Below are positions 8,627 to 49,839 of a stretch of DNA of 64,000 nt, piece by piece. This DNA is from Cronobacter malonaticus LMG 23826 (lineage in GTDB: Bacteria > Pseudomonadota > Gammaproteobacteria > Enterobacterales > Enterobacteriaceae), in contig NZ_CP013940.1 of the NCBI RefSeq assembly GCF_001277215.2, forward strand, positions 2,728,001 to 2,792,000, in the 5' to 3' direction. The position numbers were made by a program, and so were the translations under genes. Position 1 is the first letter of the stretch. Each line of letters begins with the position of its first letter. The notes beneath the pieces were generated by a model, which was given only the letters and a program-made list of their open reading frames with translations, made no database searches and was not told the DNA's origin.

Positions 8627-8947
8627 CGTAGGGCGGGTAAGGGTAAGCGCACCCGCCGTTAACGCCGCTGCCAGATGAAAGGCATTACCGGTTATAGGCG
8701 GGTGAACCGCGTAACCCGGGAATATGCACGCCCGGTTACCCGTTCCGTTCGCCACAACGCTGATTTTCTCTGTCACGTTTACTCACGCGAACGTGTTTAG
8801 GGGGCTCGCGGCCAGAGGGCAGCCGCAAGGGAAAACACCCGGCATCGGCGGTGGCATTGGGTTTTGTGGTTTCGTAGGGTGGGTAAGCGTAAGCGCACCC
8901 GCCGTTGAATTAAATGGTGGGTGCGCTTACGCTTACCCACCCTACGC
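8627..8947 (+). repeat. Intergenic palindromic repeat cluster A (3 units)
   Basis: Three copies of a roughly 30-bp element lie in the 443-bp gap between the convergent beta-glucoside operon and rhlE: 8627-8660 (direct), 8873-8905 (direct) and 8916-8947 (inverted). The last two form one long hairpin with arms of about 30 bp. Each unit begins GTAGGGYGGGTAAG and ends AGCGCACCCRCC. Between the units I see no convincing gene; a 75-codon open frame at 8724 has no supporting features. Confidence 0.85.
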
Positions 8948-8985
8948 ATGAGATAAACCGCCCGTTTACACCGCCGCATAACCAT

Positions 8986-9009
8986 AAAAAAGGTGCGCTT
9001 GCGCACACC
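8986..9009 (-). terminator. rhlE terminator
   Basis: On the minus strand GGTGTGC and GCGCACC form a stem (one G-T pair) around a GCAA loop, followed by TTTTTT. It lies 47 bp after the rhlE stop. Confidence 0.8.
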
Positions 9010-9056
9010 CTTCTTCATTTACCGGCATTGTCAGGCTCCGCTAACACACCCGTGGA

Positions 9057-10481
9057 TTATTCCCCGGACGGTTTACGCGGCGCGCGACGGGTGCGCGGTT
9101 TGCTACCTGCCGGACGGTTGCCCTCGCCTGCCGGGCGACGTGAACGCTCACCGGACGGACGATTACCTTCGCCATCCGGACGACGACCGCGCTCACCGGA
9201 CGGACGGCTGCGTTCGCCGGATGAACGGTTGCCTTCGCTGTTCTGACGACGCGGCTGGCCCTGACCACGACCGCCGCCGCCCTGACCACCACGTCCGCCG
9301 CGGCCCTGGCGACCATTCACGATAGGCTCCGCCGGGATAGACGGATCCGGCTCGTAGCCCGGAATAGCCATGCGCGGGATTTCGCGCTTCAGCAGGCGTT
9401 CGATATCGCGCAGCAGTTTGTGCTCATCGACACACACCAGCGACAGCGCTTCGCCGGTCGCGGCGGCGCGCCCGGTACGGCCGATACGGTGAACATAATC
9501 TTCCGGCACGTTCGGCAGCTCATAGTTCACCACGTGCGGCAGCTCTTCGATATCCAGACCGCGCGCGGCGATGTCTGTTGCCACCAGTACGCGAATACCG
9601 CCGGTTTTGAAATCCGCCAGCGCGCGGGTACGGGCGCCCTGGCTCTTGTTACCGTGGATAGCCGCGGCGGTAATGCCATCTTTATTCAGCTGTTCCGCCA
9701 GATGGTTAGCACCGTGTTTGGTGCGGGTAAACACCAGCACCTGCTGCCAATTGCCGTCGCCAATCAGATAAGAAAGCAGCTCCCGCTTGCGTTTTTTATC
9801 CACGAAATGCACATGCTGCGTCACCTGCTCAGAGGCGGTGTTGCGGCGCGCCACTTCCACTTCTTCCGGGTTATGCAGCAGTTTTTCCGCGAGCGATTTA
9901 ATGTCGTCGGAGAAGGTCGCGGAGAACAGCAGGTTCTGACGCTTCGGCGGCAGCTTCGCCAGCACGCGGCGGATATCGTGAATAAAGCCCATGTCCAGCA
10001 TACGGTCGGCTTCATCCAGCACCAGCACTTCCACCTGGTCAAGCTTCACGGCGTTCTGGTGTTCGAGATCGAGCAGACGGCCCGGCGTTGCGATAAGCAC
10101 ATCCACGCCGCCGCGCAGTTTCATCATCTGCGGGTTGATGCTCACGCCGCCAAACACGACCAGCGAGCGGATGTCGAGATATTTGCTGTATTCGCGCACG
10201 TTCTCGCCCACCTGGGCTGCGAGTTCACGCGTCGGGGTCAGGATCAGCGCGCGCACCGGGCGGCGGCCTTTCGGGTGCGGCTGGTTCGCCGTCAGGCGTT
10301 GCAGCAACGGCAGCGTAAAGCCTGCGGTTTTGCCGGTGCCGGTCTGGGCGCTGGCCATCAAATCTTTGCCTGAAAGCACCACCGGAATGGCCTGGCGCTG
10401 GATCGGAGTCGGTTCGTTGTAACCCTGCTCGGAAATGGCGCGCAGGATCTCAGGGCTTAAGCCCAGTGAATCAAAAGACAT
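9057..10481 (-). CDS. rhlE: ATP-dependent RNA helicase RhlE (DEAD box)
   Basis: RhlE is a cytoplasmic RNA helicase linked to 50S ribosome maturation and RNA turnover. It has 474 residues. All motifs are present: Q motif ([10 protein letters not shown]), Walker A AQTGTGKT at 45-52, [19 protein letters not shown] at 156-159, [13 protein letters not shown] and HRIGRTGR. From about residue 385 the tail is low complexity, first Gly/Arg-rich, then several copies of a GERSRRPxGEGNRPS-like unit. Such basic tails bind RNA non-specifically. The tail is coded by imperfect DNA repeats at about 9090-9240, so its length may vary between strains. It is divergent from cecR, and in E. coli CecR controls rhlE. 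Confidence 0.96.
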
Positions 10482-10677
10482 AGTTATTCCTGACTCGTCC
10501 CGACCGCAAAGGGTGTAGTTTCAGGGAGTCTAATGGCCGTCTGGCCGGAGAAGGGACATAAACCACAATGTCGCAGAGGAACGGAGTGTAACAGTTTTTG
10601 TGAACTACCGCATAAATTCTCGCGCCTGTACGTAAATCGCTGCTTTTTTCATCTCGACAGGCGCACGTTTCGGGCAT

Positions 10678-10705
10678 AAAGTTAATCAATCGATTGATTA
10701 ACTTT
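10678..10705. promoter_or_regulatory. Probable CecR operator, 28-bp perfect palindrome
   Basis: The sequence is a perfect palindrome with half-site AAAGTTAATCAATC, ending one base before the first possible cecR start codon. It lies between the divergent genes rhlE and cecR. TetR-family regulators usually bind such sites, and E. coli CecR is known to control both rhlE and its own operon, so autoregulation here is the straightforward reading. Confidence 0.8.
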
Positions 10706-10706
10706 T

Positions 10707-11405
10707 ATGGATCTCATCGATATGTCGCTCTCCGTCACGCCGCCCACCTCGCGCGGCGAACAGGCTAAAGAGAAGCTCATCAGCGCCGCCATTAACCAGT
10801 TTGGCGAGTACGGCCTGCACGCCACCACGCGGGATATCGCCGCCGCAGCCGGGCAGAATATCGCCGCCATTCCTTACTACTTTGGCTCAAAAGAAGATCT
10901 CTACATGGCCTCGGCGCAGTGGATAGCCGATTTCATCCGCGCCCATTTTCAGCCCCACGCCGATGCCGCCGAAGCGCTGCTTCGCGAGCCCGAGCCGCCG
11001 CCCGCCGCGATGCGCGCGCTGATTGACGACGCCTGCCGCCAGATGATCCAGCTGATGACCGCCGACGAGACGCTAAGCGTCAGCAAATTTATCTCCCGCG
11101 AGCAGCTCTCTCCGTCGCCCGCATATCAGCTCATCCACGAGCAGGTCATCGCCCCCCTGCACCACCACTTTACGCGGCTGATCGCCCGCCTGACCGGCGC
11201 CGATCCGGACGCCACCGAAACGGTGCTGCACACCCACGCGCTGATTGGCGAAATCCTCGCATTCCGCCTCGGGCGTGAAACCATTCTGCTGCGCGCCGGA
11301 TGGCGCGGGTTCGACGATGACAAAGCCGCGCAGATCCACCGGGTCGTCACGCTGCATATCGACTGGATCCTCGCGGGTATTTCAGGGAGCCTGAGTGATG
11401 AATAA
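10707..11405 (+). CDS. cecR: TetR-family regulator CecR
   Basis: CecR (YbiH) represses the ybhGFSR exporter operon and influences sensitivity to cefoperazone and chloramphenicol in E. coli. The N-terminal helix-turn-helix is clear ([20 protein letters not shown], then [12 protein letters not shown]). The rest is a ligand-binding dimerisation domain. There are two start candidates, 10707 (232 aa) and 10722 (227 aa); neither has a good ribosome site because the palindromic operator sits immediately upstream. The second is closer to E. coli's length. The gene overlaps ybhG by 8 bp and heads the operon. Confidence 0.93.
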
Positions 11406-12399
11406 AAAACGCGTCGCGCTACTGGCGCTGGTGGTGGTCATTATCGTTGCAGCTATTGCCGGGTGGCGCTGGTACGCCGCGCGCCACACCCCGCTGACGC
11501 TCTATGGCAATGTCGATATTCGTACCGTGAATTTAAGCTTTCGCGTCAGCGGCCGTCTGGCGTCGCTTGCCGTCGATGAAGGCGACGCGGTGCGCGCAGG
11601 CCAGCCGCTCGGCGATCTTGACCCGACGCCCCAGCAGAACGCGCTGCGCCAGGCGCAGGCGAACGTCGCCGCCGCGCGCGCCAAATATGATCTTACCGTC
11701 GCCGGTTTTCGCGATGAAGAGATAGCCCAGGCCGCTGCCGCCGTGCATCAGGCGCAGGCCGCGTATGACTACGCGCAGAATTTTTATCAGCGCCAGCAGG
11801 GGCTGTGGCGCACCAAAGTTATCTCCGCCAACGATCTGGAAAACGCTCGCTCGGCGCGCGATCAGGCGCAGGCGCAGCTGAAATCCGCGCAGGATAAGCT
11901 CAGCCAGTACCGCGCCGGTAACCGCCCGCAGGAAATCGCGCAGGCGCAGGCGGCCCTTGAACAGGCGCAGGCGGAGCTGGCCCAGGCGCAGCTTAACGCG
12001 CAAGACACGCGCCTGGTTTCCCCGTCTGACGGCACCATCCTGACGCGCGCGGTGGAGCCCGGCTCGATGCTCAACGCGGGCAGTACGGTGTTCACGCTCT
12101 CGCTGACCCGCCCGGTCTGGGTACGCGCTTACATTGATGAGATGAATCTGGGCCGCGCCGTACCGGGGAGCAACATCCTGATTTATACCGATGGCCGCCC
12201 CGACAGGCCGTACCACGGCCAGATCGGGTTCGTCTCGCCGACCGCTGAGTTCACGCCGAAAACGGTCGAAACCGAAGATCTGCGCACCGATCTGGTCTAT
12301 CGCCTGCGTATTGTGGTGAACGACGCCGACGACGCGCTGCGCCAGGGGATGCCGGTCACGCTGCGTTTCCAGGATGAGGCGGCGGATGGAAACCGCTAA
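11398..12399 (+). CDS. ybhG: Membrane fusion protein YbhG of the YbhGFSR exporter
   Basis: This HlyD/EmrA-like periplasmic adaptor has an N-terminal signal anchor (about residues 6-24, [15 protein letters not shown]), a barrel-sandwich half motif ([19 protein letters not shown]) and a long Ala/Gln-rich coiled coil (about 85-205). The second half follows ([13 protein letters not shown]). It would link the inner-membrane YbhFSR ABC pump to an outer-membrane channel. ATG at 11398 is preferred over GTG at 11395. It overlaps cecR, so expression is coupled to the regulator. Confidence 0.94.
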
Positions 12400-14116
12400 C
12401 GACAGCATCGTGCTCGATGGGCTGGTTAAACGCTTTCCGGGCCTCGAAAAACCGGCGCTCGCGCCGCTCAGCGTGACGATCCGCGCAGGCAGCGTCACCG
12501 GTCTGGTGGGGCCGGACGGCGCGGGTAAAACCACGCTGATGCGTATCCTCGCGGGGCTGATGCGCCAGAACGACGGCCGCGTGCAGGTGCTCGGGCTGGA
12601 CCCGATTGCAGAAGAAAACGCGCTGCACGCGGTGCTCGGCTACATGCCGCAGAAATTCGGCCTGTATGAAGATCTCACCGTCCAGGAGAACCTTAACCTG
12701 TATGCGGATCTGCGCAGCGTCACCGGCGCGGTGCGCGAGCAGACATTTGCCCGGCTGCTGGAATTCACCGCGCTCGGCCCGTTCACCGGGCGGCTCGCGG
12801 GCAAACTCTCCGGCGGCATGAAGCAAAAGCTCGGCCTTGCCTGCACGCTGGTGGGCCAGCCGAAGGTGCTGCTGCTGGATGAACCGGGCGTCGGCGTTGA
12901 CCCTATCTCCCGCCGCGAGCTCTGGCAGATGGTGCATGAGCTGGCGGGCGACGGGATGTTAATTCTCTGGAGTACTTCTTACCTCGATGAAGCCGAGCAG
13001 TGCCGCGAGGTGCTGCTGATGAACGAAGGCGAGCTGCTCTATCAGGGCGCGCCGCAGGCGCTCACCGAGAAAATGGCGGGCCGCAGCCTGCTGTTGCGCC
13101 CGGATGACGGCGATAACCGCGCGCTGCTGCGAGAGATCATGCAGCGCCCGGACGTCAGCGACGCCACCATTCAGGGCGCGGCGGTGCGGGTGATTCTGAA
13201 AGAGGGTTCCGACGCAGACGCCCTGCGCGCCCTGCCCGGCGCGACGCTTCGTGAAACCGCGCCGCGCTTTGAGGATGCGTTTATCGATCTGGCGGGCGGC
13301 TCCGCGCTGCGTGAATCGCCGCTCGGCGCCATTCTGCATGACATTCCCGGCAGCCGCGACGACGTGGTGATTGAGGCGCGCGAACTCACCAAAACCTTCG
13401 GCGATTTCACCGCGACCGACCGTGTGAATTTTACCGTGCGGCGCGGCGAGATTTTCGGCCTGCTCGGGCCGAACGGCGCGGGCAAATCTACCACCTTTAA
13501 GATGATGTGCGGGCTGCTGAAACCAAGCGACGGCCAGGCGCTGGTGCTGGGCCTCGATTTAAAAACCGACTCCGGCAAGGCGCGCCAGCGGCTCGGCTAT
13601 ATGGCGCAGAAGTTTTCGCTGTACGGCAACCTGACCGTCGAGCAAAACTTACGCTTTTTCTCCGGCGTCTACGGCCTGCGCGGCCGGGCGCAGCAGGAAA
13701 AAATGGCGCGCATGAGCGAGGCGTTCGGGCTGAAAAGCATCGCCAGCCAGCCGACGGACGCGCTGCCGCTCGGCTTTAAGCAGCGTCTGGCGCTGGCCTG
13801 CGCGCTGATGCACGAGCCGGATATTCTGTTTCTCGACGAGCCGACCTCCGGCGTTGACCCGCTGACCCGCCGCGAATTCTGGCGGCACATCAACAGCATG
13901 CCGGAAAAAGGCGTGACGGTGATGGTCACGACCCACTTTATGGATGAGGCGGAGTATTGCGACCGTATCGGGCTTGTCTATCACGGCAAACTTATCGCCA
14001 GCGGCACGCCGGATGATTTAAAGCGCCAGGCGGCGCGCGATGCAAACGACGAGCCGACGATGGAAGAAGCCTTCATCCGCCTTATCGAGGCCTGGGATAA
14101 GGAGCACAGCCAATGA
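12386..14116 (+). CDS. ybhF: ABC exporter ATPase YbhF (two fused nucleotide-binding domains)
   Basis: This is the ATP-hydrolysing subunit of the YbhFSR drug and Na+/Li+ exporter. It holds two ABC domains in one chain. The first has Walker [10 protein letters not shown], signature LSGGMKQK and Walker B VLLLDEP. The second, from about residue 330, has GPNGAGKST and LFLDEPTSG, but its signature reads LPLGFKQR instead of LSGGxxQ. The same substitution occurs in E. coli YbhF as I remember it, so it is a family trait. ATG at 12386 is preceded by GAGG and overlaps ybhG by 14 bp. The stop overlaps the ybhS start. Confidence 0.94.
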
Positions 14117-15234
14117 TGAAACTGCGGCGCGTGCGCGCGTTGTGCGTGAAAGAGACGCGCCAGATCCTGCGCGACCCGAGTAGCTGGCTTATCGCGGTGG
14201 TCATTCCCCTGCTGCTGCTGTTTATTTTCGGCTACGGCATTAACCTCGATTCCAGCCGCCTGCATGTCGGCGTCCTGCTGGAGCAGCGCAGCGAAGAGGC
14301 GCTCGACTTCACGCACACCATTACTGCCTCGCCCTTTATCGCGCCGACCATCAGCGACAACCGCCAGCATTTGATTGAACTGATGCAGGCCGGGAAAATC
14401 CGCGGGCTGGTGGTTATCCCAGTGGACTTCGCGGCGCGGATGGCGCGCCCCGGCGACAGCGCGCCGATTCAGGTGATCACCGACGGCAGCGAACCGAACA
14501 CCGCCAACTTTGTGCGCGGCTATGTGGAGGGCATCTGGCAGCTCTGGCAGGCGGAGCGCGCAGAAGACCGCGGCGAGACGTTCGAGCCGCTGATTGATGT
14601 GCAGCTCCGCTACTGGTTTAACCCGGCGGCGATAAGCCAGCACTTTATTATTCCCGGCGCGGTGACGATCATCATGACGGTTATCGGCGCGATACTGACC
14701 TCGCTGGTGGTCGCCCGCGAATGGGAGCGCGGCACTATGGAGGCGCTGCTTTCGACCGAAGTCACACGCGGCGAACTGCTGCTGTGCAAGCTTATCCCCT
14801 ACTATTTCCTCGGTATGCTGGCGATGCTGCTCTGTATGCTGGTGTCGGTGTTTATTCTCGGCGTGCCGTATCGCGGCTCGCTGCTGGCGCTCTTTTTTAT
14901 CTCCAGCCTGTTTCTGCTGAGCACGCTCGGCATGGGGCTGCTTATCTCAACGCTCACCCGTAACCAGTTCAACGCCGCCCAGGTGGCGTTGAATGCGGCG
15001 TTTCTGCCTTCGGTGATGCTTTCAGGGTTTATTTTCCAGATAGACAGTATGCCCGCCGTGATCCGCGCGGTGACGTATATCATTCCGGCGCGCTATTTCG
15101 TCAGTACGCTGCAAAGCCTGTTTCTCGCGGGCACGCTGCCGGGCGTGCTGCTGGTCAACGTGCTGTTTCTGCTGGCTTCCGCCGTGATGTTTATCGGACT
15201 GACGTGGGTGAATACCCGACGCCGCCTCGATTAA
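14113..15234 (+). CDS. ybhS: ABC-2 type permease YbhS
   Basis: This is an inner-membrane subunit of the YbhFSR exporter, 373 residues. Topology is typical of ABC-2 exporters: one N-terminal membrane segment (about 20-38, [17 protein letters not shown]), a large periplasmic domain, then five more segments from about residue 180 ([28 protein letters not shown]). The [12 protein letters not shown] motif marks the family. The start overlaps ybhF by 4 bp (ATGA). The N-terminus is a little shorter than E. coli's. Confidence 0.94.
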
Positions 15235-15243
15235 GGAGACGCT

Positions 15244-16350
15244 ATGTGGCACCGCTTATGGACGCTTATCCGCAAAGAGTTGCAGTCGCTGCTGCGCGAG
15301 CCGCAGACCCGCGCGATTCTGATCCTGCCTGTCGTCTTGCAGGTGCTGCTGTTTCCGTTCGCGGCGACGCTGGAAGTGACCAATGCCACTATCGCCATCT
15401 ATAACCAGGATAACGGCGCGCACGCGGTAGAGCTGACCCAGCGCTTCGCCCGCGCCAGCGCATTCAGCCATGTGACATTGCTTAACAGCGAGCAGGCGAT
15501 CCGCCCGACCATCGATGCGCAGAAGGCGCTGCTGGTCATCCACTTCCCGGCGGATTTCTCCCGCAAGCTGGCGCGCGGCGAACCCGCGACGCTGCAAATT
15601 CTGCTCGACGGGCGCAACTCCAACAGCGCGCAGATAGCCGCCAATTACCTTCAGCAGATCGTCAAAGATTATCAGCAGGAGCTGCTCGCAGGCCGCGCGA
15701 AGCCTAATAACAGCGAGCTGATTGTGCGTAACTGGTATAACCCGAATCTTGACTACAAATGGTTTGTGGTGCCGTCGCTGATTGCGATGATTACCACTAT
15801 CGGCGTGATGATTGTGACGTCGCTGTCGGTGGCCCGCGAGCGCGACCAGGGCACGCTCGACCAGCTGTTAGTCTCCCCGCTCGCCACCTGGCAGATTTTC
15901 ATCGGCAAAGCGGTGCCGGCGCTGATTGTTGCTACCTTTCAGGCAACGATTGTGTTGGCGATTGGTATCTGGGGCTATCAGATCCCGTTCGCCGGGTCGC
16001 TTGCGCTCTTTTATTTCACCATGGTGATTTACGGGCTGTCGCTGGTGGGGTTCGGGCTTTTGATTTCGGCGCTCTGCTCGACGCAGCAGCAGGCGTTTAT
16101 CGGGGTGTTTGTCTTTATGATGCCCGCGATTTTACTCTCGGGCTATGTCTCGCCGGTGGAGAATATGCCGGTCTGGCTGCAAAACCTGACGTGGATTAAC
16201 CCGATCCGGCACTTTACCGATATTACGAAGGCGATTTATCTCAAGGATGCCAGTCTCGATATCATCTGGCATAGCGTGTGGCCGCTGATAGTGATTACGG
16301 CCACAACAGGCTTAGCGGCGTATGCCATGTTTCGACGAAAAATTGGCTGA
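15244..16350 (+). CDS. ybhR: ABC-2 type permease YbhR
   Basis: This is the second permease of the YbhFSR exporter, 368 residues, probably a heterodimer partner of YbhS. It has the same fold, with an N-terminal segment near residues 20-40, a periplasmic domain, and a C-terminal membrane block beginning with the motif [14 protein letters not shown]. It starts 9 bp after ybhS with AAGGAG upstream. The last 39 bp overlap the 3' end of ybhQ, which is read from the opposite strand. Confidence 0.94.
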
Positions 16351-19943: not shown

Positions 19944-20196
19944 GGCGGGTGCGCTGCGCTTACCCACCCTACAACATCACACATCACGCATTTTCGTAGG
20001 GCGGGTAAGCGCCAGCGCACCCGCCATGCAAAACCAACATCAGCCTCATCACCGTAGGGCGTGTAAGCGCAGCGCACCCGCCATACAAAACCAACATCAG
20101 CGTCATCTTCGTAGGGCGTGTAAGCGAAGCGCACCCGCCATACAAAACCAACATCAGCCTCATCACCGTAGGGCGGGTAAGCGCAGCGCACCCGCC
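19944..20196 (+). repeat. Intergenic palindromic repeat cluster B (5 units, 57-58 bp period)
   Basis: Units lie at 19944-19972 (inverted), then 19995-20025, 20053-20082, 20110-20139 and 20167-20196 (direct). The four direct copies begin 57-58 bp apart and share linkers rich in CATACAAAACCAACATCAG, so this is a small tandem array. It fills the gap between the convergent genes ybhN and ybhL. No gene is visible here. Confidence 0.9.
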
Positions 20197-22768: not shown

Positions 22769-23758
22769 TCAGCCGCCGATATAGGACAGATTCTGGGTGA
22801 TGCCGGTGTTGCCCTGATGCAGGAAATGCGTCTGCTTTTTGCCGAGCAACGCCGTTTCAATACGCGCCATCAGCGCCGCCTGCTGCCCCTCTTCGGCCAG
22901 CAGATCGCGAAGATCCACGCCGCCGTCGCCAAACAGGCACAGGTGCAGCTTACCTACCGACGACACGCGCAGGCGGTTGCAGCTCGCGCAGAAATCTTTC
23001 TCATACGGCATGATAAGGCCGATTTCGCCCTGATAATCGGGGTGGCAGAAGACCTGCGCCGGGCCGTCAGCACGGCTGCGCAACTGATGGATCCAGCCGC
23101 GCTTAAGCAGTTCGTCGCGAATCGTCGCGCCAGAAATATGGTGCTTGCGGAAGAGATCGCTCCCCTCACCGGTTTCCATCAGCTCAATAAAGCGTAGCTG
23201 GATGGGGCGGGATTTGATCCAGTTGAGGAAGGTGTCGAGCTGGTGATGGTTCACGTCGCGTATCAGCACGGTGTTAACCTTCACTTTTTCAAAGCCCGCG
23301 TCGAAGGCGGCGTCGATGCCCGCCATCACCTGGCGGAATTTATCCTGGCCTGTGATCGCGTGAAACTGGCGGGCGTCGAGGCTGTCGACGCTGACATTAA
23401 CCGCCGTCAGCCCGGCCTCGCGCCACTGCGCGACATCGCGCGCCAGGCGGTAGCCGTTGGTTGTGACGGCAATCTGGCGGATGGAGGGGTTTTCACGCAC
23501 GGCGGCGATGATGTCGCAAAAATCGCGGCGCAGCGAGGGTTCGCCGCCGGTCAGCCGCACTTTTTCAGTGCCGAGATTCGCGAACGCGCGCGTCACGCGA
23601 CGAATTTCGTCGAGCGAGAGGAAGCCTTTGTTGGTGACGCCTGCGGGCTTGTAGCCATCCGGCAGGCAATAGGTGCAACGAAAGTTGCAGACGTCAGTCA
23701 CTGACAGGCGCAAGTAATAGAACTTACGCGCAAACGCATCGGTAAGTTGAGAAGCCAT
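22769..23758 (-). CDS. moaA: GTP 3',8-cyclase MoaA (radical SAM)
   Basis: MoaA catalyses the first step of molybdenum cofactor synthesis. The N-terminal radical SAM cluster is C24-x3-C28-x2-C31 (VCNFRCTYC). A second cluster is set by C-terminal cysteines around [12 protein letters not shown] and KLHLC. The conserved C-terminal Gly-Gly is present (SYIGG). The start at 23758 (MASQLTDAF) gives 329 aa as in E. coli; an upstream extension of the frame falls inside the riboswitch. It is controlled by that leader and probably by ModE. Confidence 0.97.
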
Positions 23759-23760
23759 GT

Positions 23761-23870
23761 ACACCTTTCCAAATCGGGAGATGCAGTCATTTCTTCCTGC
23801 ACCCTGGTGGCGTTTCGCCACGGCCAGAGCACCATATTTCTTAAAAACGTAGGCGCAAAGGCTTGAGTGT
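23761..23870 (-). ncRNA. Moco (molybdenum cofactor) riboswitch, moaA leader
   Basis: The minus strand begins ACACTCAAGCCTTTGCGCC, continues through GGTGCTCTGG, a CCGTGGCG-AAA-CGCCAC hairpin and GGGTGCAGGAAGAAATGA, and ends GGAAAGGTGT just before the moaA ATG. Order and sequence resemble the E. coli moaA leader, the founding Moco RNA. The AAGG ribosome site lies inside the 3' end, so cofactor binding would plausibly block translation. Confidence 0.85.
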
Positions 23871-23941
23871 CTTTTTTCAGGTTTTTAAACCTGCCAGCGG
23901 CGATAGTAGCGTGTTATCGCGGGTTTCGCCACGCGCGATTT

Positions 23942-25040: not shown

Positions 25041-25366
25041 CGGCGGGTGCGCTGCGCTTACCCGCCCTACGGCTCCCGGAATGGGCTTTGATGATATGTA
25101 GGGTGGGTAAGCGAAGCGCATCCACCACACGGCTCACAAAGCAGGCGTTGATGCAATGTAGGGTGGGTAAGCGAAGCGCACCCATCACACGGCTCACAAA
25201 GCAGGCGTTGATGCAATGTAGGGTGGGTAAGCGAAGCGCACCCACCACACGGCCCACGGAGCGGGCGTTGATGGAATGTAGGGTGGGTAAGCGAAGCGCA
25301 CCCACCACACGGCCCACAAAGCAGGCGTTAATGAAATGTAGGGTGGGTAAGCGAAGCGCACCCACC
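25041..25366 (+). repeat. Intergenic repeat cluster C: five-copy 60-bp tandem array plus one inverted unit
   Basis: An inverted unit occupies 25041-25070. Five direct units start at 25097, 25157, 25217, 25277 and 25337, exactly 60 bp apart. The linkers are nearly identical too (CACGGCTCACAAAGCAGGC, then GTTGATGCAAT), so the whole 60-bp block is the repeat. It fills the gap between the convergent genes yvcK and uvrB. Open frames on both strands across it arise only because 60 is a multiple of three. Confidence 0.95.
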
Positions 25367-35366: not shown

Positions 35367-36677
35367 TTGAACACATTTTCGGTTTCCCGTCTGGCGCTGG
35401 CGTTCGCTTTTGGCGTGACACTGACTGCATGCAGCTCAACGCCACCGGACCAACGTCCTTCTGAACAACGCGCGCCGGGTACGTCGGCTCGCCCGGTGCT
35501 GTCTGCGGATGAAGCGAAAAATTTCGTCCCGGCCCGCTATTTCTCCAATGTCGATCCGAATGCCGCGCCGTGGGCGCCCTCCCCGATTCGACTGCCTGAA
35601 AAAGCGGACTTTGTGGTCGGCCAGGCGGGCGAGCAGGGCGTGACCCACACCAGCATTCAGGCGGCCGTTGACGCCGCTATTGCGCGCCACGCGACGGCAC
35701 GTCAGTACATCGCTGTGCTCCCCGGCACCTATGAAGGCACCGTTTACGTGCCTGCGGCACCGGGCAGCGTGACGATTTACGGCACCGGCGAAAAACCGCT
35801 GGATGTGAAAATCAGCGCCGCGCTGGACAGCGAAATGGATGCCAACACCTGGCGTCGTACCGTGAACCCGTCCGGCAAATATATGCCCGGCAAACCGGCC
35901 TGGTATATGTTCGATAACTGCCAGAACCGCCGCAACGGCACCGTCGGCCTGATGTGTTCCGCGGTGTTCTGGTCGCAGAATAATGGCCTGCAACTGCAAA
36001 ACCTGACCATCGAAAACAGCCTCGGCGACGCCGCAGGCGAAGGTCAGCACCAGGGTGTCGCGCTGCGTACCGATGGCGACCGCGTGCAGATCAACAAAGT
36101 GAATGTCCTGGGCCGCCAGAATCCGTTCCTGGTGACCAACAGCGATATCCGCAACCGCTTCACGCCGGATCGTCTGACCCGCACGCAGGTGACGAACAGC
36201 TACGTGGAAGGCGATGTGGATCTGGTCGCGGGCCGCAGCGCGGTAGTGTTTGATAACACCGAATTCCGCGTGGTGAACACACGTACCCAGAAAGAAGGTT
36301 ATGTGTTTGCGCCAGCGACCATGCCGAACTTCTATTACGGCTTCCTCGCCGTGAACAGCCGCTTTGTGGCGGCAGGTGAAGGCGTGGCGCAGCTTGGCCG
36401 CGCATGGGATATGGACGCGAGCGCCAATGGTTATACCCCAGGCCAGACGCCGAACGGTCAGGTGGTTATCCGCGACAGCGTGATTGACGCCGGTTTCAAC
36501 ACCGCGCAGCCGTGGGGCACCGCGCTCGGTTCACAGCGTCCGTTCACCGGCAACACCGGCGCGCAGGACGATAAAGGCAATATCCAGCGCGATCTGAACG
36601 ATGCGAACGCCAACCGTCTGTGGGAATACAACAACCGCGGACTGGGCAGCAAAGTGGTTGCCGAACCGAAAAAGTAA
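35367..36677 (+). CDS. ybhC: Outer-membrane lipoprotein YbhC, pectinesterase family
   Basis: 436 residues. A lipoprotein signal ends at C22 (VTLTACSS). The mature part is a right-handed beta-helix of carbohydrate esterase family 8 (TIQAAVDAAI; GTVYVPAAPGSVTIYG; LQLQNLTIENS; VALRTDGDRVQI; NSYVEGDVDLVAGRSAVVF). E. coli YbhC is an outer-membrane acyl-CoA-thioesterase-like or pectinesterase-like protein whose real substrate is uncertain. The start is TTG at 35367 after AAGGAG, aligning with E. coli MNTFSVSRL; an upstream ATG at 35325 would spoil the signal peptide. Confidence 0.92.
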   Translation: MNTFSVSRLALAFAFGVTLTACSSTPPDQRPSEQRAPGTSARPVLSADEAKNFVPARYFSNVDPNAAPWAPSPIRLPEKADFVVGQAGEQGVTHTSIQAAVDAAIARHATARQYIAVLPGTYEGTVYVPAAPGSVTIYGTGEKPLDVKISAALDSEMDANTWRRTVNPSGKYMPGKPAWYMFDNCQNRRNGTVGLMCSAVFWSQNNGLQLQNLTIENSLGDAAGEGQHQGVALRTDGDRVQINKVNVLGRQNPFLVTNSDIRNRFTPDRLTRTQVTNSYVEGDVDLVAGRSAVVFDNTEFRVVNTRTQKEGYVFAPATMPNFYYGFLAVNSRFVAAGEGVAQLGRAWDMDASANGYTPGQTPNGQVVIRDSVIDAGFNTAQPWGTALGSQRPFTGNTGAQDDKGNIQRDLNDANANRLWEYNNRGLGSKVVAEPKK

Positions 36678-36701
36678 TCGCCCGGCATTAACGGACGTCA
36701 G

Positions 36702-36730
36702 AAAAAAGGGGGAGCAATCCCCCTTTTTCT
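36702..36730 (+). terminator. ybhC terminator
   Basis: AAAAAGGGGG and CCCCCTTTTT pair around AGCAAT, followed by a T-rich stretch 25 bp after the ybhC stop. Confidence 0.85.
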
Positions 36731-36830
36731 TTGCCTGTTTGTTGACGCAAGGCAATCGCCTGACGGCGGCGGTCCGTATGATTAAAGCGTTGAGAACAAC
36801 AGACGTGCAGGGTGGCTCACCACCGCCCAT

Positions 36831-36858
36831 AAAAAACCTCGCCGCGGCGAGGTTTTTT
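36831..36858. terminator. Bidirectional terminator, mainly for pgl
   Basis: A perfect palindrome with half-site AAAAAACCTCGCCG, giving a 12-bp stem ending in A/T runs on both strands. It abuts the pgl stop on the minus strand. Confidence 0.88.
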
Positions 36859-36862
36859 ATTT

Positions 36863-37864
36863 TTACGCGTCGAAGGCGTTAATGACGACCCACATCGGGC
36901 CCTGTCCTACTGCGTAACGGCCTTTCTCCGCGAGCAGCCCCTGCTCGCCTTCAATGCCGTAAACCGCAATGTGATGCGATTTCTGGCCGGCGGCAATCAG
37001 ATACTGCCCGCTGTTGTCGATGTTGAAGCCGCGCGGCTGGGTTTCGGTTGGCTGGTGCCCCTGCACCGCCAGGACGCTGCCATCTTCAGAAACGGTGAAG
37101 ACCGTAATGACGCTCGCGGTGCGGTCACAGGCGTAGAGATGACGGCCATCCGGCGTAATGTGAATATCCGCCGCCCAGCGGGTGTCGGAGAAATCGGCCG
37201 GCATCATATCCAGCGTCTGCACGCATTCAATGTTGCCGTGCGGATCGCTCAGCGCCCACACATCCACCGAGCTGTTCAGCTCATTCACACAGTAGGCGAA
37301 CGGCTTGCTCGGGTGGAAGACCATATGGCGCGGCCCGGCGCCCGCGACGGTGGTGACTTCCGCTGGCGTTTGCGGCTCAAGGTGGCCATCGTCGGTCAGC
37401 GTAAACAGGCAGATGCGATCCTGCTTCAGCGCAGGCACCCACAGCGTGCGGTTATCCGGGGAGATATTCGCGGAGTGGCAGCCTTCCAGCCCTTCTACCA
37501 CAGTGACGGTCTCGCCCGGCAGGCCGTCGTTCAGGCGCACCACGCTCACGCTGCCTGCGTTATAGGAGCCGCTGAACAGGAAACGACCGGTATGATCGGT
37601 CGAAATGTGCGTCGGGCTGCCCGGCAGCGGCGCTTCGCCCGCCTCGCTGAGCGTGCCGTCATGTGCGGCGATGCGATACGCGATAATGCGAAACTCCGGG
37701 CGCACGCCAACATAGAGGAAACGCTTGTCAGGACTGATGACCATCGGCTGAACCTGCCCTGGCGCATCCACCACCTGCAACAGCGTCAGCGTGCCCTGCG
37801 GCTCCAGACGCCAGACGTGGATCTGCTGGCTCTCCGGGCTTGCGGTATAAACGGTTTGTTTCAT
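36863..37864 (-). CDS. pgl: 6-phosphogluconolactonase (YbhE type)
   Basis: Pgl hydrolyses 6-phosphogluconolactone in the oxidative pentose phosphate pathway. 333 residues, a seven-bladed beta-propeller with repeated [44 protein letters not shown] blocks. Conserved catalytic-region residues occur in [10 protein letters not shown] and [11 protein letters not shown]. The start at 37864 (MKQTVYTAS) follows AAGGAG and aligns with E. coli; a frame extension of six codons is not needed. It is divergent from ybhA. Confidence 0.96.
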
Positions 37865-41488: not shown

Positions 41489-41498
41489 CGGGGGGGAA

Positions 41499-42568: not shown

Positions 42569-42598
42569 CACGCGACGTTGACATTGCGCCGTGAAAAA

Positions 42599-42637
42599 CG
42601 TATCCCTGTGGTTTTGCGCTGCAAAAAATGGGATACG
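42599..42637 (+). other. Inverted repeat over the modF ribosome site
   Basis: CGTATCCC (42599-42606) and GGGATACG (42630-42637) can pair across 23 nt. The right arm contains the purine-rich ribosome site of modF (start 42640), so the hairpin could reduce modF translation relative to modE. Confidence 0.5.
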
Positions 42638-42639
42638 GG

Positions 42640-44112: not shown

Positions 44113-44243
44113 CGCAGCGTTGTTACGCGGGCCGGGCGTTTCCCTGCCCGCGCCCCGCTGTCACTTTCAGATTACCTGCAAATGCGCGCTTCGCGTTTTG
44201 TTTTACAATGGCTTAGCGTTGTGAGCCAGATGAGTGAAAAGCA

Positions 44244-44259
44244 GTGTAAACGATTCCAC
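44244..44259 (+). promoter_or_regulatory. gal external operator OE (GalR/GalS)
   Basis: GTGTAAACGATTCCAC is, as I recall it, identical to the E. coli OE operator. It lies 94 bp upstream of the galE start. Confidence 0.92.
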
Positions 44260-44306
44260 TAATTTATCCCATGTCACACTTTTTAGCGCTCTGTTATGCT
44301 ATGGTT
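44260..44306 (+). promoter_or_regulatory. gal promoter region P1/P2 with CRP site
   Basis: The CRP region ATCCCATGTCACACTTTT follows the operator. Overlapping -10 elements are TATGCTA (44295-44301, P2) and TATGGTT (44300-44306, P1), 5 bp apart as in E. coli. CRP activates P1 and represses P2. Confidence 0.85.
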
Positions 44307-44337
44307 AATACATACCATAAGCGTAATGGAGCCAAAT

Positions 44338-45354
44338 ATGCGAGTTCTGGTAACAGGTGGTAGCGGTTACATCGGAAGTCATACTTGTGTACAGCTGCTG
44401 CAAAACAATCACGATGTCGTCATTCTTGATAACCTCTGCAACAGCAAGCGCAGCGTTCTGCCGGTGATTGAGCGTCTGGGCGGTAAAGCCGCGACGTTTA
44501 TCGATGGCGATATCCGCGATGAAGCGCTGCTGCGCGAGATTTTCCACGACTACGCCATCGACACGGTGATCCATTTCGCCGGTCTGAAGGCGGTCGGCGA
44601 ATCCGTCGCGAAACCGCTGGAGTATTACGACAACAACGTCAACGGTACGCTGCGCCTGATCTCCGCGATGCGCGCTGCGGGCGTCACCAATTTTATTTTC
44701 AGCTCCTCCGCGACCGTTTACGGCGACCAGCCGAAAATCCCTTATGTCGAAAGTTTCCCGACCGGTACGCCGCAAAGCCCGTATGGCAAAAGCAAGCTGA
44801 TGGTCGAGCAGATCCTGACCGACCTGCAAAAAGCCTGCCCGGAGTGGAGCATCGCGCTGCTGCGTTATTTCAATCCGGTCGGCGCGCATCCGTCAGGCGA
44901 TATGGGCGAAGATCCGCAGGGCATCCCGAACAACCTGATGCCGTATATCGCGCAGGTGGCGGTCGGTCGTCGTGAGTCGCTGGCGGTTTTCGGTAACGAT
45001 TACCCGACCAAAGACGGCACCGGCGTACGCGACTATATCCACGTCATGGATCTCGCCGACGGCCACGTGGCCGCGATGCAGCAACTGGCCGATAAGCCGG
45101 GCGTGCATATCTACAACCTCGGCGCGGGCGTCGGCAGCAGCGTGCTGGATGTCGTGAACGCGTTCAGCAAAGCCTGCGGCAAGCCTATCAATTATCATTT
45201 CGCGCCGCGCCGCGACGGCGACCTGCCCGCGTACTGGGCGGACGCCACTAAAGCAGACCAGGATCTGAACTGGCGCGTGACGCGTTCATTACAGGAAATG
45301 GCGGACGACACCTGGCGCTGGCAGTCACGTCATCCCCAAGGTTATCCCGATTAA
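44338..45354 (+). CDS. galE: UDP-glucose 4-epimerase
   Basis: GalE interconverts UDP-galactose and UDP-glucose. 338 residues, as in E. coli. NAD-binding TGGSGYIG is at 6-13; the catalytic set is S124 (FSSSATVYG), Y149 and K153 (SPYGKSK). The start at 44338 follows ATGGAG; an in-frame extension to 44296 lies within the promoter. It is first in galETKM. Confidence 0.97.
44357..44372 (+). promoter_or_regulatory. gal internal operator OI inside galE
   Basis: GTGGTAGCGGTTACAT matches the E. coli OI operator, within galE codons 7-12. It is spaced 113 bp centre to centre from OE, allowing the GalR-HU repression loop. Confidence 0.9.
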
Positions 45355-45364
45355 AGGAAGTCAG

Positions 45365-46411
45365 ATGGAACAGTTTAACCCCGTGGATCATCCGCACCGT
45401 CGTTATAACCCGCTGACCGGACAATGGATTCTGGTTTCGCCGCATCGCGCCAAGCGCCCCTGGCAGGGGGCGCAGGAGACGCCTGCGAAACAGACGCTGC
45501 CGCAGCACGATCCCGATTGTTTTCTCTGCCCCGGCAACACGCGTGTCACCGGGGATAAAAACCCGCAGTACACCGGCACCTATGTGTTTACCAACGATTT
45601 CGCCGCGCTGATGACCGATACGCCGGACGCGCCGCAAAGCGCCGATCCGCTGATGCGTCTTGAGAGCGCCCGCGGCACCAGCCGCGTGATTTGCTTCTCG
45701 CCGGATCACAGCAAAACGCTGCCGGAGCTGACGCTGCCCGCGCTCGAAGAAGTGGTGAATACGTGGCAGACGCAGACCGCCGAGCTGGGCAAAACCTACC
45801 CGTGGGTACAGGTGTTTGAAAACAAAGGCGCGGCGATGGGCTGCTCCAACCCGCATCCGCACGGTCAGATCTGGGCCAACAGCTTCCTGCCGAATGAAGC
45901 CGAGCGTGAAGACAGGCTGCAGCGCGACTATTTCGAACAGCAAGGCTCGCCGATGCTGGTGGATTACGCCCAGCGTGAACTGGCAGACGGCAGCCGCACC
46001 GTGGTGGAAACCGAACACTGGCTGGCGGTAGTGCCGTACTGGGCGGCCTGGCCGTTTGAAACGCTGCTGCTGCCGAAAACGCACATTCTGCGCATGACCG
46101 ATCTGACTGACGCGCAGCGCAGCTGCCTTGCGGTGGCGCTGAAAAAACTCACCAGCCGCTACGACAACCTGTTCCAGACCTCGTTCCCCTACTCGATGGG
46201 CTGGCACGGCGCGCCGTTCAATGGTGAAGAGAACACGCACTGGCAGCTTCACGCCCACTTCTACCCGCCGCTGCTGCGCAGCGCCACGGTCCGTAAATTT
46301 ATGGTGGGGTATGAAATGCTGGCGGAAACCCAGCGTGATTTAACCGCCGAACAGGCGGCAGAGCGCCTGCGCGCCGTCAGCGACGTCCACTTTCGCGAAT
46401 CCGGAGAATAA
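45365..46411 (+). CDS. galT: Galactose-1-phosphate uridylyltransferase
   Basis: GalT (348 aa) exchanges UMP between UDP-glucose and galactose-1-phosphate. The nucleophile H166 lies in [12 protein letters not shown]-terminal [20 protein letters not shown] and zinc-site DCFLCPGN are typical. It starts 10 bp after galE and ends 2 bp before galK. Confidence 0.97.
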
Positions 46412-46413
46412 CA

Positions 46414-47562
46414 ATGAGCCTGAAAGAAAAGACACACGCCCTGTTTGCCGAAAAATTCGGCTACCCTGCCACCACTCACATTCAGGCACCGGGCCGCGTT
46501 AACCTTATTGGCGAGCACACCGACTATAACGACGGTTTCGTGCTGCCGTGCGCTATCGATTACCAGACGGTGATCAGCTGCGCGAAGCGTGACGACCGCC
46601 GCGTGCGCGTCGTTGCTGCCGATTACGATAACCAAACCGATGAGTTTTCTCTTGATGAGCCGATCCTGACGCACGACAGCCAGCAGTGGTCGAACTATGT
46701 GCGCGGCGTGGTGAAGCATCTGCAACAGCGCGACCCTGGCTTCGGCGGTGCCGATCTGGTGATCAGCGGCAACGTGCCACAGGGCGCGGGCTTAAGCTCT
46801 TCCGCGTCGCTGGAAGTGGCGGTTGGCACCGTGTTCCGCCACCTCTATCACCTTTCGCTCGACGGCGCGCAGATCGCTCTGAACGGCCAGGAAGCGGAAA
46901 ACCAGTTCGTCGGCTGCAATTGCGGCATCATGGATCAGCTGATTTCCGCGCTGGGCAAAAAAGACCATGCGCTGCTCATCGATTGTCGCAGCCTTGGCAC
47001 CAAAGCCGTGCCGATGCCGCAGGGCGTCGCGGTCGTTATTATCAACAGTAATTTCAAACGCACGCTGGTCGGCAGCGAGTACAACACGCGCCGTGAGCAG
47101 TGCGAAACCGGCGCGCGTTTCTTCACGCAAAAAGCGCTGCGCGACGTGAGCCTGGATCAGTTTAACGCCGTGGCGCATGAGCTTGACCCGATTGTGGCTA
47201 AACGCGTGCGCCATGTGCTGACTGAAAACGCCCGTACCGTCGAAGCGGCTGACGCGCTGGCGAAAGGCGATCTGACACGCATGGGCGAACTGATGGCGGA
47301 ATCTCACGCCTCGATGCGCGACGACTTTGAAATTACCGTTCCGCAGATCGATACTCTGGTGGAGATTGTGAAATCGGTTATCGGTGACAAAGGCGGCGTG
47401 CGCATGACGGGCGGCGGCTTTGGCGGCTGCGTCGTGGCGCTGGTGCCGGAAGCTATCGTGCCGGAAGTGCAGGCCGCTGTGGAAGCGCAATATGAAGCGC
47501 GCACCGGTATTAAAGAAACGTTTTACGTGTGCAAACCTTCAGAAGGAGCAGGTCTGTGCTAA
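46414..47562 (+). CDS. galK: Galactokinase
   Basis: GalK (382 aa) phosphorylates galactose at C1. GHMP-kinase motifs are present: the galactose signature [19 protein letters not shown], the phosphate loop [12 protein letters not shown], and C-terminal [13 protein letters not shown]. The stop overlaps the galM GTG start region by 7 bp. Confidence 0.97.
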
Positions 47563-48596
47563 AAGAGACGCCACAACTGGCCCCGGATGGCCAGCCGTAT
47601 CGTATCTCCACCCTGCGCAACGCGGCAGGGATGGTCGTCACCGTGATGGACTGGGGCGCGACGCTGCTGTCGGCCCGCGTCCCGATGAAAGACGCCAGCG
47701 TGCGCGAAACGCTGCTGGGCTGCCCGAGCCCGGAAATCTGGCTGGAGCAGACCGCGTTTCTCGGCGCGTCGGTGGGCCGTTACGCCAACCGCATCGCGCA
47801 GTCACGCTTTACGCTCGATGGCGAGACGTATTCTCTTACGCCAAGCCAGGGCGAAAACCAGCTGCACGGCGGCCCGGAAGGGTTCGACAAACGCCGCTGG
47901 CGCATTGTGCGCCAGAACGGACAGGAAGTGCTTTATACGCTGGATTCGCAGGATGGCGACCAGGGTTATCCCGGCGAGCTGCGCGCCACCGCGCATTTCC
48001 GCCTGACCGACGATAACCGCATCAGCATTGAATACCGCGCCCGCGTGGATAAACCGTGCCCGGTCAATCTCACGAACCATGCCTATTTCAACCTGGACGG
48101 CGAGCAGAACGACGTGCGCGACCATCGCCTGCAACTCTTCGCCGAACGCTATCTGCCGGTTGATGAGCAGGGCATTCCGCGTGAGGGGCTGGCGGACGTG
48201 GCGGGAACCGGTTTTGATTTCCGCGAGCCGAAAAAAATCGCGCAGGATTTCCTGAAAGATGAAGGCCAGCAGCGCGTAAAAGGCTATGACCACGCCTGGC
48301 TGCTGGACGCGAAAGGCGATGTGAACCAGCCGGCGGCGCATGTCTGGTCGAGCGATGAAAAGCTCAAAATGACGGTCTATACCACCGCCCCTGCGTTGCA
48401 GTTCTACTCTGGCAACTATCTGGAAGGCACGCCTGCGCGCGAGCAGGGTACGTACAGCGCCTGGCAAGGGCTGGCGCTGGAGAGTGAATTCCTGCCGGAC
48501 AGCCCTAATCACCCGGAATGGCCGCAGCCGGACTGCATTCTGCGCCCGGACCAGGAATACCAGAGCATCACGCAGTATCACTTTATTCCTCAGTAA
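47556..48596 (+). CDS. galM: Galactose mutarotase (aldose 1-epimerase)
   Basis: GalM (346 aa) converts beta- to alpha-galactose for GalK. Motifs include [41 protein letters not shown] (catalytic histidine) and [20 protein letters not shown] (catalytic glutamate). The start is GTG at 47556, preceded by AGAAGGAG and overlapping galK; this aligns with E. coli and is preferred to an ATG at 47529 inside galK. Confidence 0.95.
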
Positions 48597-48600
48597 TCTT

Positions 48601-48629
48601 CAGCCCTCTTTCAAAGAGGGCTTTTTTTC
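48601..48629 (+). terminator. gal operon terminator
   Basis: GCCCTCTTT and AAAGAGGGC form a stem followed by seven T, right after galM. Confidence 0.9.
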
Positions 48630-48758
48630 GCCATTTTGCTGCTATTGCCGCCAGTTACTGACAAAAAAATCACGGCCCATTCACATGCGCCTTACACTGC
48701 ACCGCTATTTTCGCTATGTTAAAGGTTTACGTTGCCGCTAACTTCAACACGGCAATAT

Positions 48759-48777
48759 AATGATAACTGTTATCATT
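48759..48777. promoter_or_regulatory. Fur box upstream of gpmA
   Basis: AATGATAACTGTTATCATT is a perfect 9-1-9 palindrome resembling the Fur consensus, 28 bp upstream of the gpmA start. E. coli gpmA is reported to be Fur-repressed. Confidence 0.8.
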
Positions 48778-48804
48778 CAATCAGGCTTATGAAGGAGTAA
48801 TACT

Positions 48805-49557
48805 ATGGCTGTTACTAAGCTGGTTCTGGTTCGTCACGGTGAAAGCCAGTGGAACAACGAAAACCGCTTTACCGGTTGGTATGACGTTGACCTGTCTGAA
48901 AAAGGCGTCAGCGAAGCGAAAGCTGCGGGCAAGCTGCTGAAAGACGAAGGCTACAGCTTTGACTTTGCTTATACCTCCGTGCTGAAACGTGCCATCCACA
49001 CGCTGTGGAACATCCTGGACGGGCTGGATCAGGCCTGGCTGCCGGTTGAAAAATCCTGGAAACTGAACGAGCGTCACTACGGTGCGCTGCAGGGTCTGAA
49101 CAAAGCCGAAACCGCTGAAAAATACGGTGATGAGCAGGTGAAACAGTGGCGTCGCGGCTTCGCGGTGACTCCGCCGGCGCTGACCAAAGATGACGAGCGT
49201 TTCCCGGGCCACGATCCGCGTTACGCGAAACTGAGCGAGCAGGAGCTGCCGCTGACCGAGAGCCTGGCGCTGACCATCGATCGCGTTATTCCTTACTGGA
49301 ATGAAACCATTCTGCCGCGCCTGAAAAGCGGTGAGCGCGTGATTATCGCCGCTCACGGTAACTCCCTGCGTGCGCTGGTGAAATACCTGGATAACATGAG
49401 CGAAGAAGAGATTCTTGAGCTGAACATCCCGACCGGCGTACCGCTGGTGTATGAGTTTGACGAGAACTTCAAACCGATTAAACACTACTATCTGGGCAAT
49501 GCTGACGAGATCGCAGCGAAAGCGGCGGCTGTCGCAAACCAGGGTAAAGCGAAGTAA
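48805..49557 (+). CDS. gpmA: 2,3-bisphosphoglycerate-dependent phosphoglycerate mutase
   Basis: GpmA interconverts 3- and 2-phosphoglycerate in glycolysis. 250 residues. The phosphohistidine H11 lies in [10 protein letters not shown], with the second catalytic histidine in [10 protein letters not shown] and [11 protein letters not shown] between. Codon use is strongly biased to preferred codons, fitting high expression. AAGGAG precedes the start. Confidence 0.97.
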
Positions 49558-49578
49558 TTCGCAACCGTAAGGTGTGCA

Positions 49579-49608
49579 AAAGGCGTGGTGAAAACCACGC
49601 CTTTTTTA
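49579..49608 (+). terminator. gpmA terminator
   Basis: AAGGCGTGGT and ACCACGCCTT pair around GAAA, followed by TTTTATT. Confidence 0.9.
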
Positions 49609-49654
49609 TTGGCGGGGACGGTGGGAGGATATGACGGGTGCGCTTCGAGTGGGA

Positions 49655-49839
49655 CGGCGGGTGCGCTTTGCTTACCCGCCCTACGATAACCGTATGATTC
49701 GTGCTGGACGGCGGGTGCTTGCGCTTACCCGCCCTACGATAGACGGATTATTCGTGCTGGACGGCGGGTGCGCTAACGCTTACCCGCCCTACTTCGGTGC
49801 CAGAGGTATGTAGGGTGGGTAAGCGTTAGCGCACCCACC
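49655..49839 (+). repeat. Intergenic palindromic repeat cluster D (4 units)
   Basis: Units are at 49655-49685, 49709-49738 and 49762-49792 (inverted, about 53 bp apart, sharing CGTGCTGGACGG linkers) and 49809-49839 (direct). The last two face each other and can form a long hairpin. The cluster fills the gap between the convergent genes gpmA and aroG. Confidence 0.9.

Follow-up and report, generated by a model that had tools for sequence, protein, structure and literature searches.

The stretch of the Cronobacter malonaticus LMG 23826 chromosome analysed here (contig NZ_CP013940.1, positions 2,728,001 to 2,792,000; 64,000 nucleotides, hereafter the window) carries 18 short inverted-repeat units which, judged by their sequence, are copies of a known family of repetitive extragenic palindromes (REPs) of the GTAG class. 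A gene for a REP-associated tyrosine transposase (RAYT) is present in the same genome between units of the same kind, and it is probable that the copies were spread by RAYT as single-stranded hairpins and piled up behind the ends of genes. The family has already been described in print, and the finding is largely ordinary. With a unit defined by at most three mismatches within its first 16 bases, units were found in the window only at 8628–8945 (3 units), 19944–20196 (5), 25042–25366 (6) and 49656–49839 (4), referred to as clusters A to D. A sequence-only reading had described about 18 elements in four clusters, each mixing both orientations; these points were borne out, and the start of cluster A was corrected from 8627 to 8628.

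Family identity and the RAYT gene

The string GTAGGGTGGGTAAGCG was traced in the literature to Nunvar et al. 2010 (PMC2817692; published work is cited here and below from the portions of text available). Table 1 of that paper gives GTAGGGcGGGTAAGCGgAGCGCACCCgCC and GTAGGGtGGGTAAGCGcAGCGCACCCaCC for Enterobacter sakazakii ATCC BAA-894, now named Cronobacter sakazakii, flanking the RAYT YP_001437784, and both unit versions of our genome are identical to the two printed sequences. The likeness to REP-A and REP-B of ATCC BAA-894 extends to the consensus, the C/T dimorphism and a RAYT (‘Esak’) flanked by both types, with 159 and 180 copies given at up to two mismatches; no orientation and spacer analysis for that strain was found in the available part of the paper, and one is given here. 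Di Nocera et al. 2013 (PMC3733652) assign C. sakazakii a GTAG-3 family that is largely clustered and has loops of the simplest kind, and report REPs mainly in convergent and unidirectional gaps, heads-in dimers commoner than heads-out, spacers tending to vary and a preference for heterodimers. Our units resemble this GTAG-3 superfamily in their GTAG terminus, heads-in heterodimers and location in convergent or unidirectional gaps. Relative to the accessible text of that study, the present analysis adds per-gap rates with a background, stop-codon distances, stem-based pair types, cross-species decay and spacer flips.

For copy counts, the exact 16-mer GTAGGGYGGGTAAGCG was used as a probe with the reversed pattern as control. 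The 4.47-Mb genome contains 117 forward and 105 reverse copies (222 in all), and the control gave 0 + 0. Across seven genomes of the genus, G000 (our own) to G006, the exact counts are 222, 5, 72, 25, 266, 148 and 199. Among 119 sampled genomes of the family, own genus included, the 16-mer occurred in 10, with a maximum of 4 copies outside the genus, and among the best 80 of 314 Enterobacterales yvcK loci, a set with no member of our own genus, a near 16-mer was seen once, away from the junction. Placement was analysed in C1:1-2,930,500, which makes up 68% of the chromosome and for which the match lists of both strands appear complete; this region holds 171 exact copies in 78 clusters (600-bp join) and 60 stretches. 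With up to two mismatches tolerated in the first 16 bases, the count was 272 units in 83 places.

The units have the properties of REPs. They are imperfect palindromes of 29–30 bases (REPs span 20–40 bp), they are numerous and extragenic (one of the 83 places is in a called gene), and they end in an unpaired GTAG, with G in 204, T in 206, A in 215 and G in 211 of 216 29-mers, conservation in the first 16 bases being partly built in by the search design. Among 84 distinct 29-mers, 95% of stem cells are paired; the 29-base unit folds with z = −4.7 relative to shuffles, and folds are strong on both strands. Stem pair 7:27 covaries (C-G in 43 and T-A in 30 of the 84 distinct units), and over the whole stem changes on both sides were seen in 37 cells, compared with a shuffle maximum of 23. 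The sequence GCGAAGC is an exceptionally stable DNA hairpin. Of the 272 units, 182 fit a strict pattern; among these, GCGAAGC forms the loop in 44, and the wider G-N-A or G-NN-A class accounts for 143. The folding program favours a shifted register (bulge AA, stem GCG/CGC) over the GNA mini-hairpin, whereas the conserved loop A fits the mini-hairpin register.

Neighbouring units are oriented −+ in 84 cases, ++ in 48, −− in 38 and +− in 19. The basic module is an inverted heads-in (−+) pair with its GTAG heads pointing inward, present in 66 of the 83 places, and its spacer has a median of 21 bp (16–29 bp in 75 of 78 pairs), so that the REPIN layout of two inverted REPs at a preferred distance is found. 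When three window pairs were folded, each whole pair gave one long hairpin with the spacer as loop; cluster A, with its heads-out pair, is an exception to the module. A pyrimidine directly precedes GTAG in 251 of 270 units. In 66 of 78 pairs a C-type unit stands opposite a T-type unit; the other 12 are C/C and none is T/T. Tandem neighbours (++ or −−, less than 60 bp apart) are alike in 72 of 77. Because pairs are heterotypic and tandem neighbours alike, arrays seem to grow from an original heterodimer, a unit and its spacer being duplicated in tandem to one side; clusters B, C and D point to this. The REPINs of Pseudomonas fluorescens (Bertels and Rainey 2011, PMC3116915) are likewise inverted REP doublets with a preferred distance, a predicted single hairpin, a RAYT nearby and a spacer less conserved than the REPs. 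The GI doublets described there differ in keeping one layout, with 71 bp between 16-mers, and some excisions were seen; in our genome spacer lengths vary between 16 and 29 bp, hardly any two spacers are related, and no movement was seen.

A RAYT-type transposase, for which the sequence-only reading had proposed a search, was found. The Pfam model PF01797, at E 0.001, gave no match in our genome and none in any of the seven genus genomes, a result that was discarded as a false negative at least for G000 and G004 on the basis of queries with E. coli RayT and with our own RAYT. The E. coli K-12 RayT protein matched at C1:1917457 (E = 1.9e-72), where an open frame of 168 residues occupies C1:1917457-1917963. 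The translated product scores 186.9 bits against the NCBIfam equivalog NF047646 (REP-associated tyrosine transposase; cut-off 80); among solved structures it matched one, E. coli TnpA-REP 4er8. Its identity to E. coli RayT is 65%, and the HMH motif and the catalytic Y115 align (Y115 is named as catalytic in the E. coli enzyme in PMC8266576); PF01797 at E 0.001 misses the protein despite this identity. Five REP units surround the gene, three upstream and two downstream, forming a REPtron at a convergent junction (L088 1285-2120; G000:C1:1917241-1918076). The E. coli BIME/REP system with TnpA-REP (group 2; PMC8266576) is similar in its bulged stem (A12A13 against GC), GTAG motif and RAYT; our units differ from it in being shorter (29–30 bases) and in having another stem sequence and a simple loop. 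The recognition features of the E. coli enzyme given in that paper are GTAG, T11 and the bulge A12A13 against GC, and at the same unit positions T11 is present in 215, A12 in 216 and A13 in 215 of our 216 29-mers, a conservation to which the search design again contributes in part. The Cronobacter protein is a putative single-strand REP-binding and -cutting enzyme, the comparison covering catalytic residues and recognition positions.

The own-RAYT query matched two of the seven genus genomes, G000 and G004, which are the two richest in copies, and gave no match in the other five; one genome per species was searched, and strains with RAYT may exist within these five species. At the same junction G004 carries a RAYT gene 92% identical to ours, and between the same flanks G006 has one REP pair and no RAYT gene.

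Placement behind gene ends

Genes were called with a codon-usage dynamic programming caller trained on stretches of the same genome. The caller is imperfect: it missed the RAYT gene, and the RAYT gap was thus scored as one convergent gap. In the window there are nine tail-to-tail junctions, four of them overlapping, rather than the ten and five counted in the sequence-only reading; its five gapped junctions, four of them with a cluster, stand, as does its statement that units are absent from every tandem and divergent gap of the window (at the three-mismatch sensitivity). The gapped convergent junction without a cluster is 36677–36863.

The proposal that the family is confined to convergent junctions, prompted by four window clusters that are all convergent, failed in the genome-wide scan. 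The 83 places comprise 46 convergent and 32 tandem gaps, 2 divergent gaps, 2 stretch edges and 1 place in a gene, the last lying 13 bp short of the called gene's 3′ end. With the edge and in-gene places excluded, 80 classifiable gaps remain, 32 of them tandem and 2 divergent. The classes are near-constant over gene-score thresholds of 8, 11, 14 and 20 (tandem 31–32, convergent 46–47), so that strict confinement is refuted and can be given practically no credence. At a convergent share of 46/80, the chance of four convergent clusters in four is about 0.11, and the run in the window is a local coincidence of a real 3′-end bias.

As background, 20 random 15-kb stretches from the same part of the chromosome were used, containing 86 tandem, 28 convergent and 41 divergent gaps of at least 50 bp. 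Against these, convergent gaps are enriched among REP gaps (odds ratio 6.1, p = 1.4e-9; 5.6 against all junctions) and divergent gaps depleted (odds ratio 0.07, p = 1.5e-6; 0.12 against all junctions). Within the random stretches alone, the gaps of this size that contained units were 5 of the 28 convergent ones, 4 of the 86 tandem ones and none of the 41 divergent ones. In tandem gaps the cluster starts 8–84 bp past the upstream stop codon (median 37.5 bp) and ends a median of 128 bp ahead of the next start; the gene-proximal unit in these gaps showed no preferred type (C/T 11, T/C 9, C/C 8, T/T 4). Convergent gaps make up 46 of 78 observed, compared with 38–39% expected from the count of 3′ ends (p = 3e-4 and 7e-4). 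What holds as a rule is therefore that units sit a short way downstream of a gene's 3′ end and that convergent gaps have more of them than counting 3′ ends would predict; coding sequence and divergent gaps are nearly free of units. A mobile unit tolerated only in some places had also been suggested by the sequence-only reading. The RAYT between the same units and the near-empty divergent gaps and coding sequence agree with this; its convergent-only rule does not survive 32 tandem gaps out of 80.

The convergent enrichment could also be expected if the clusters were sites for DNA gyrase or a nucleoid protein, relieving supercoils between converging polymerases, and the discussion in PMC3733652 names the REPs of E. 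coli as targets of gyrase. As 32 of 80 REP gaps are tandem, we regard this as very improbable.

Predicted terminators were sought with a simple home-made scan for a hairpin plus T-run. At convergent 3′ ends one was found in 59 of 92 cases in REP gaps and in 34 of 62 in random gaps without REPs; in tandem gaps the figures are 18 of 32 with REPs and 34 of 98 without, so that predicted terminators are commoner there with REPs. Nor do the units themselves look like intrinsic terminators: in the composition beside 270 units (a test of composition, without a per-unit terminator score), the base after the unit is mostly A or G, followed by T in 166 of 270 with no run, and the base before the head is T-rich, which is A-rich on the other strand. 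The idea that REPs replace lacking intrinsic terminators was dropped in view of the convergent figures, and bidirectional termination, offered earlier as a reason for the placement, is not supported by these figures and the composition; REPs do not stand in for terminators. A predicted terminator lies between the stop codon and the first unit at 27 of 92 convergent 3′ ends, and since the remaining 65 have none, transcription would run into the first unit at the majority of 3′ ends.

Comparison across the genus and weighing of explanations

Presence at orthologous sites was scored in a 300-kb stretch that was not chosen for REPs in the relatives and contains 15 REP gaps in our genome, units being counted at up to three mismatches. 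In G006, 10 of these gaps have units, 1 has none and 4 were not found; the corresponding numbers are 9, 2 and 4 in G003 and 3, 9 and 3 in G001. As G003 has 25 exact copies yet shows units at 9 gaps, these would mostly be decayed copies at old sites. For the empty gaps of G001, loss and never having had units are alike compatible and cannot be told apart. A seven-unit convergent array at G000:C1:2683919 has no units in G006, G003 or G001; the G006 orthologue retains, by eye, a short stub of a REP arm, which makes deletion more likely than a pristine target. Clean empty sites were sought in G001, G003 and G006, and no insertion footprint could be read. At junction D the number of minus-strand units is 3 in our genome, 4 in G004, 2 in G006 and 1 each in G005 and G002, and a common spacer is recognisable in our genome, G004, G005 and G006.

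Spacers were compared in a larger set of orthologous gaps (G004 42, G006 28, G001 4, G002 4, G003 3, G005 3), in which the G004 and G006 stretches were mainly picked for carrying REPs, so that the set informs on spacers and not on presence. The 78 comparisons, which count spacers and not places, gave 57 in the same orientation, 3 flipped (one borderline, 0.31) and 18 too different. Clear flips were seen between our genome and G004 at G000:C1:437830 (score 0.90) and between our genome and G006 at G000:C1:2889449 (0.63); a further one, between G005 and G006 at junction C (window 25071–25097; 0.86), was found by reading. In flipped spacers the outer flanks stay in place, as in tiny inversions between two REPs. 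Among 2966 non-orthologous spacer pairs two reach 0.6 in reverse, both from three convergent loci that share one common spacer, reversed in one of them (G000:C1:500188, 733392 and 758033; 3 pairs, compared with 0–1 per shuffle). The common spacer indicates that some pairs were copied together, as would be expected of a REPIN doublet moving with its spacer; the other spacers look unrelated. For loci 500188 and 758033 the similarity extends, judged by eye, some 25 bp past the pair on one side, suggesting that flank was copied too. The genus genomes show amplification, decay and rare spacer flips.

Spread by RAYT, followed by accumulation behind gene ends, is the explanation that we hold with fairly high confidence. 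RAYT would spread REP copies as single-stranded hairpins; those landing in a promoter or within coding sequence would be eliminated, leaving copies to accumulate behind gene ends, and convergent gaps would hold most of them by offering two 3′ ends and no promoter. Most clusters would then form part of the transcript, as hairpins at the 3′ ends of mRNAs; there they may retard decay or transcription while being dispensable for either. It draws support from the printed match, the RAYT with its recognition features, the placement, the stem covariation and the spacer shared by three loci. The data establish that the family is already in print, that it is numerous, that a RAYT lies between units of its kind, that placement is biased and that pairs are inverted with C facing T; they also establish that orthologous junctions differ in unit number and include decayed units, and that five of seven genus genomes carry copies and give no match to this RAYT. 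We infer that the genome's own RAYT moved the window copies.

Several observations weigh against this explanation. No movement was observed, and the tie between RAYT and REPs is one of location and of published work. The five genomes without a RAYT match keep 5 to 199 exact 16-mers, and the copies have therefore either outlived the enzyme or arrived by another route. Spacers are mostly unrelated between places, which copying of the pair as a unit would not explain, and the preference for convergent gaps exceeds what their 3′ ends would account for. Units are also kept at many sites across the genus (of 11 orthologous gaps located in each, 10 in G006 and 9 in G003), which would fit a retained function as well.

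Such a function is the substance of a rival account, in which the clusters are host-selected 3′-end elements whose transcribed hairpins stop RNA decay or convergent read-through and are kept for that job. The convergent excess (46/78 compared with 38–39%), the strong folds on both strands and the units at the same junctions of related genomes would suit it, as would the gene-proximal unit lying 5–156 bp from the stop codon and its predicted transcription at the 65 of 92 convergent 3′ ends noted above. We nevertheless consider it unlikely: predicted terminators are not rarer at REPs (59/92 and 34/62), exact copies range from 5 to 266 among the seven genus members, no unit was recognised at 9 of the 12 orthologous gaps found in G001, and the seven-unit convergent junction has none in three relatives.

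A nested 54-bp repeat and other features of the window

Between the units of cluster A lies a second interspersed repeat (8691–8860), whose 54-bp core has the form GTTCCGTTCGCC-N30-CACGCGAACGTG, usually followed by AGGGGGCTCGCCG. It has 21 matches in our genome (some of them pieces of one copy) and 1–22 per relative, and occurs in all seven genus genomes. A profile of the repeat found 18 pieces in our REP stretches and 1 in random stretches, itself in a REP gap, and all 17 own matches below 3.0 Mb lie, by eye, within 150 bp of a listed REP 16-mer; four further own matches beyond 3.0 Mb fall outside this comparison. The core measured 54 bp in 20 of 20 exact pattern matches among 343 loci (16 loci matched; the pattern allowed 44–68), and in 30 distinct rows the inverted arms are near-invariant and the middle variable. 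No match was found in the plasmid or E. coli collections, nor by exact pattern in viral contigs. Rfam scores on 8600–8960 were all far below gathering (best MIR1858, 46 of 137 bits, on the palindrome), and a string search of the literature returned one vertebrate paper and no bacterial one. Tentatively, and with considerable doubt, the module may be an apparently undescribed passenger, either a composite mobile unit or a structured binding site travelling only in REP arrays, with inverted REP pairs acting as tiny flip sites.

The genes adjoining the clusters include rhlE, uvrB, a YvcK-like gene, gpmA and aroG. At the gathering threshold Rfam gave 8 matches in the window, none overlapping a REP unit. 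They include five minus-strand tRNA matches with an adjoining RtT RNA match (54788–55613), a molybdenum-cofactor riboswitch match (23746–23881) and a CpoB/ybgF thermometer match (56547–56685).

Table 1. REP units, pair spacers and the core of the second repeat in the window
Feature	Position	Strand	Basis
REP unit A1, C-type, one mismatch in head half	8628..8657	+	half-site list and sequence
54-bp core of second interspersed repeat, between A units, GTTCCGTTCGCC-N30-CACGCGAACGTG	8742..8795	+	
REP unit A2, T-type	8874..8903	+	
REP unit A3, T-type; heads-out pair with A2, 12 bp apart	8916..8945	-	
REP unit B1, T-type on own strand	19944..19972	-	
B1/B2 heads-in pair spacer, 23 bp	19973..19995	no strand	
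REP unit B2, C-type	19996..20025	+	
REP unit B3, C-type, tandem copy	20054..20082	+	
REP unit B4, C-type, tandem copy	20111..20139	+	
REP unit B5, C-type, tandem copy	20168..20196	+	
REP unit C1, C-type	25042..25070	-	
C1/C2 pair spacer, 27 bp; reverse-complemented between G005 and G006	25071..25097	no strand	
REP unit C2, T-type	25098..25126	+	half-site list
REP unit C3, T-type, in 60-bp tandem array	25158..25186	+	
REP unit C4, T-type, loop GCGAAGC	25218..25246	+	
REP unit C5, T-type	25278..25306	+	
REP unit C6, T-type	25338..25366	+	
REP unit D1, C-type	49656..49684	-	half-site list
REP unit D2, C-type, loop region shortened	49710..49737	-	half-site list
REP unit D3, C-type	49763..49792	-	
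D3/D4 pair spacer, 17 bp; recognisably alike in G004, G005 and G006	49793..49809	no strand	
REP unit D4, T-type	49810..49839	+	

The tempting rule of convergent junctions is corrected here to a local run of a general rule, that of lying behind the gene end. Of the seven genus genomes two match this RAYT and five do not, and their exact copies number from 5 to 266; they offer a system for studying REP decay after loss of the transposase, and the same genomes bear on why C-type and T-type units pair head to head and on the nature of the nested 54-bp repeat.

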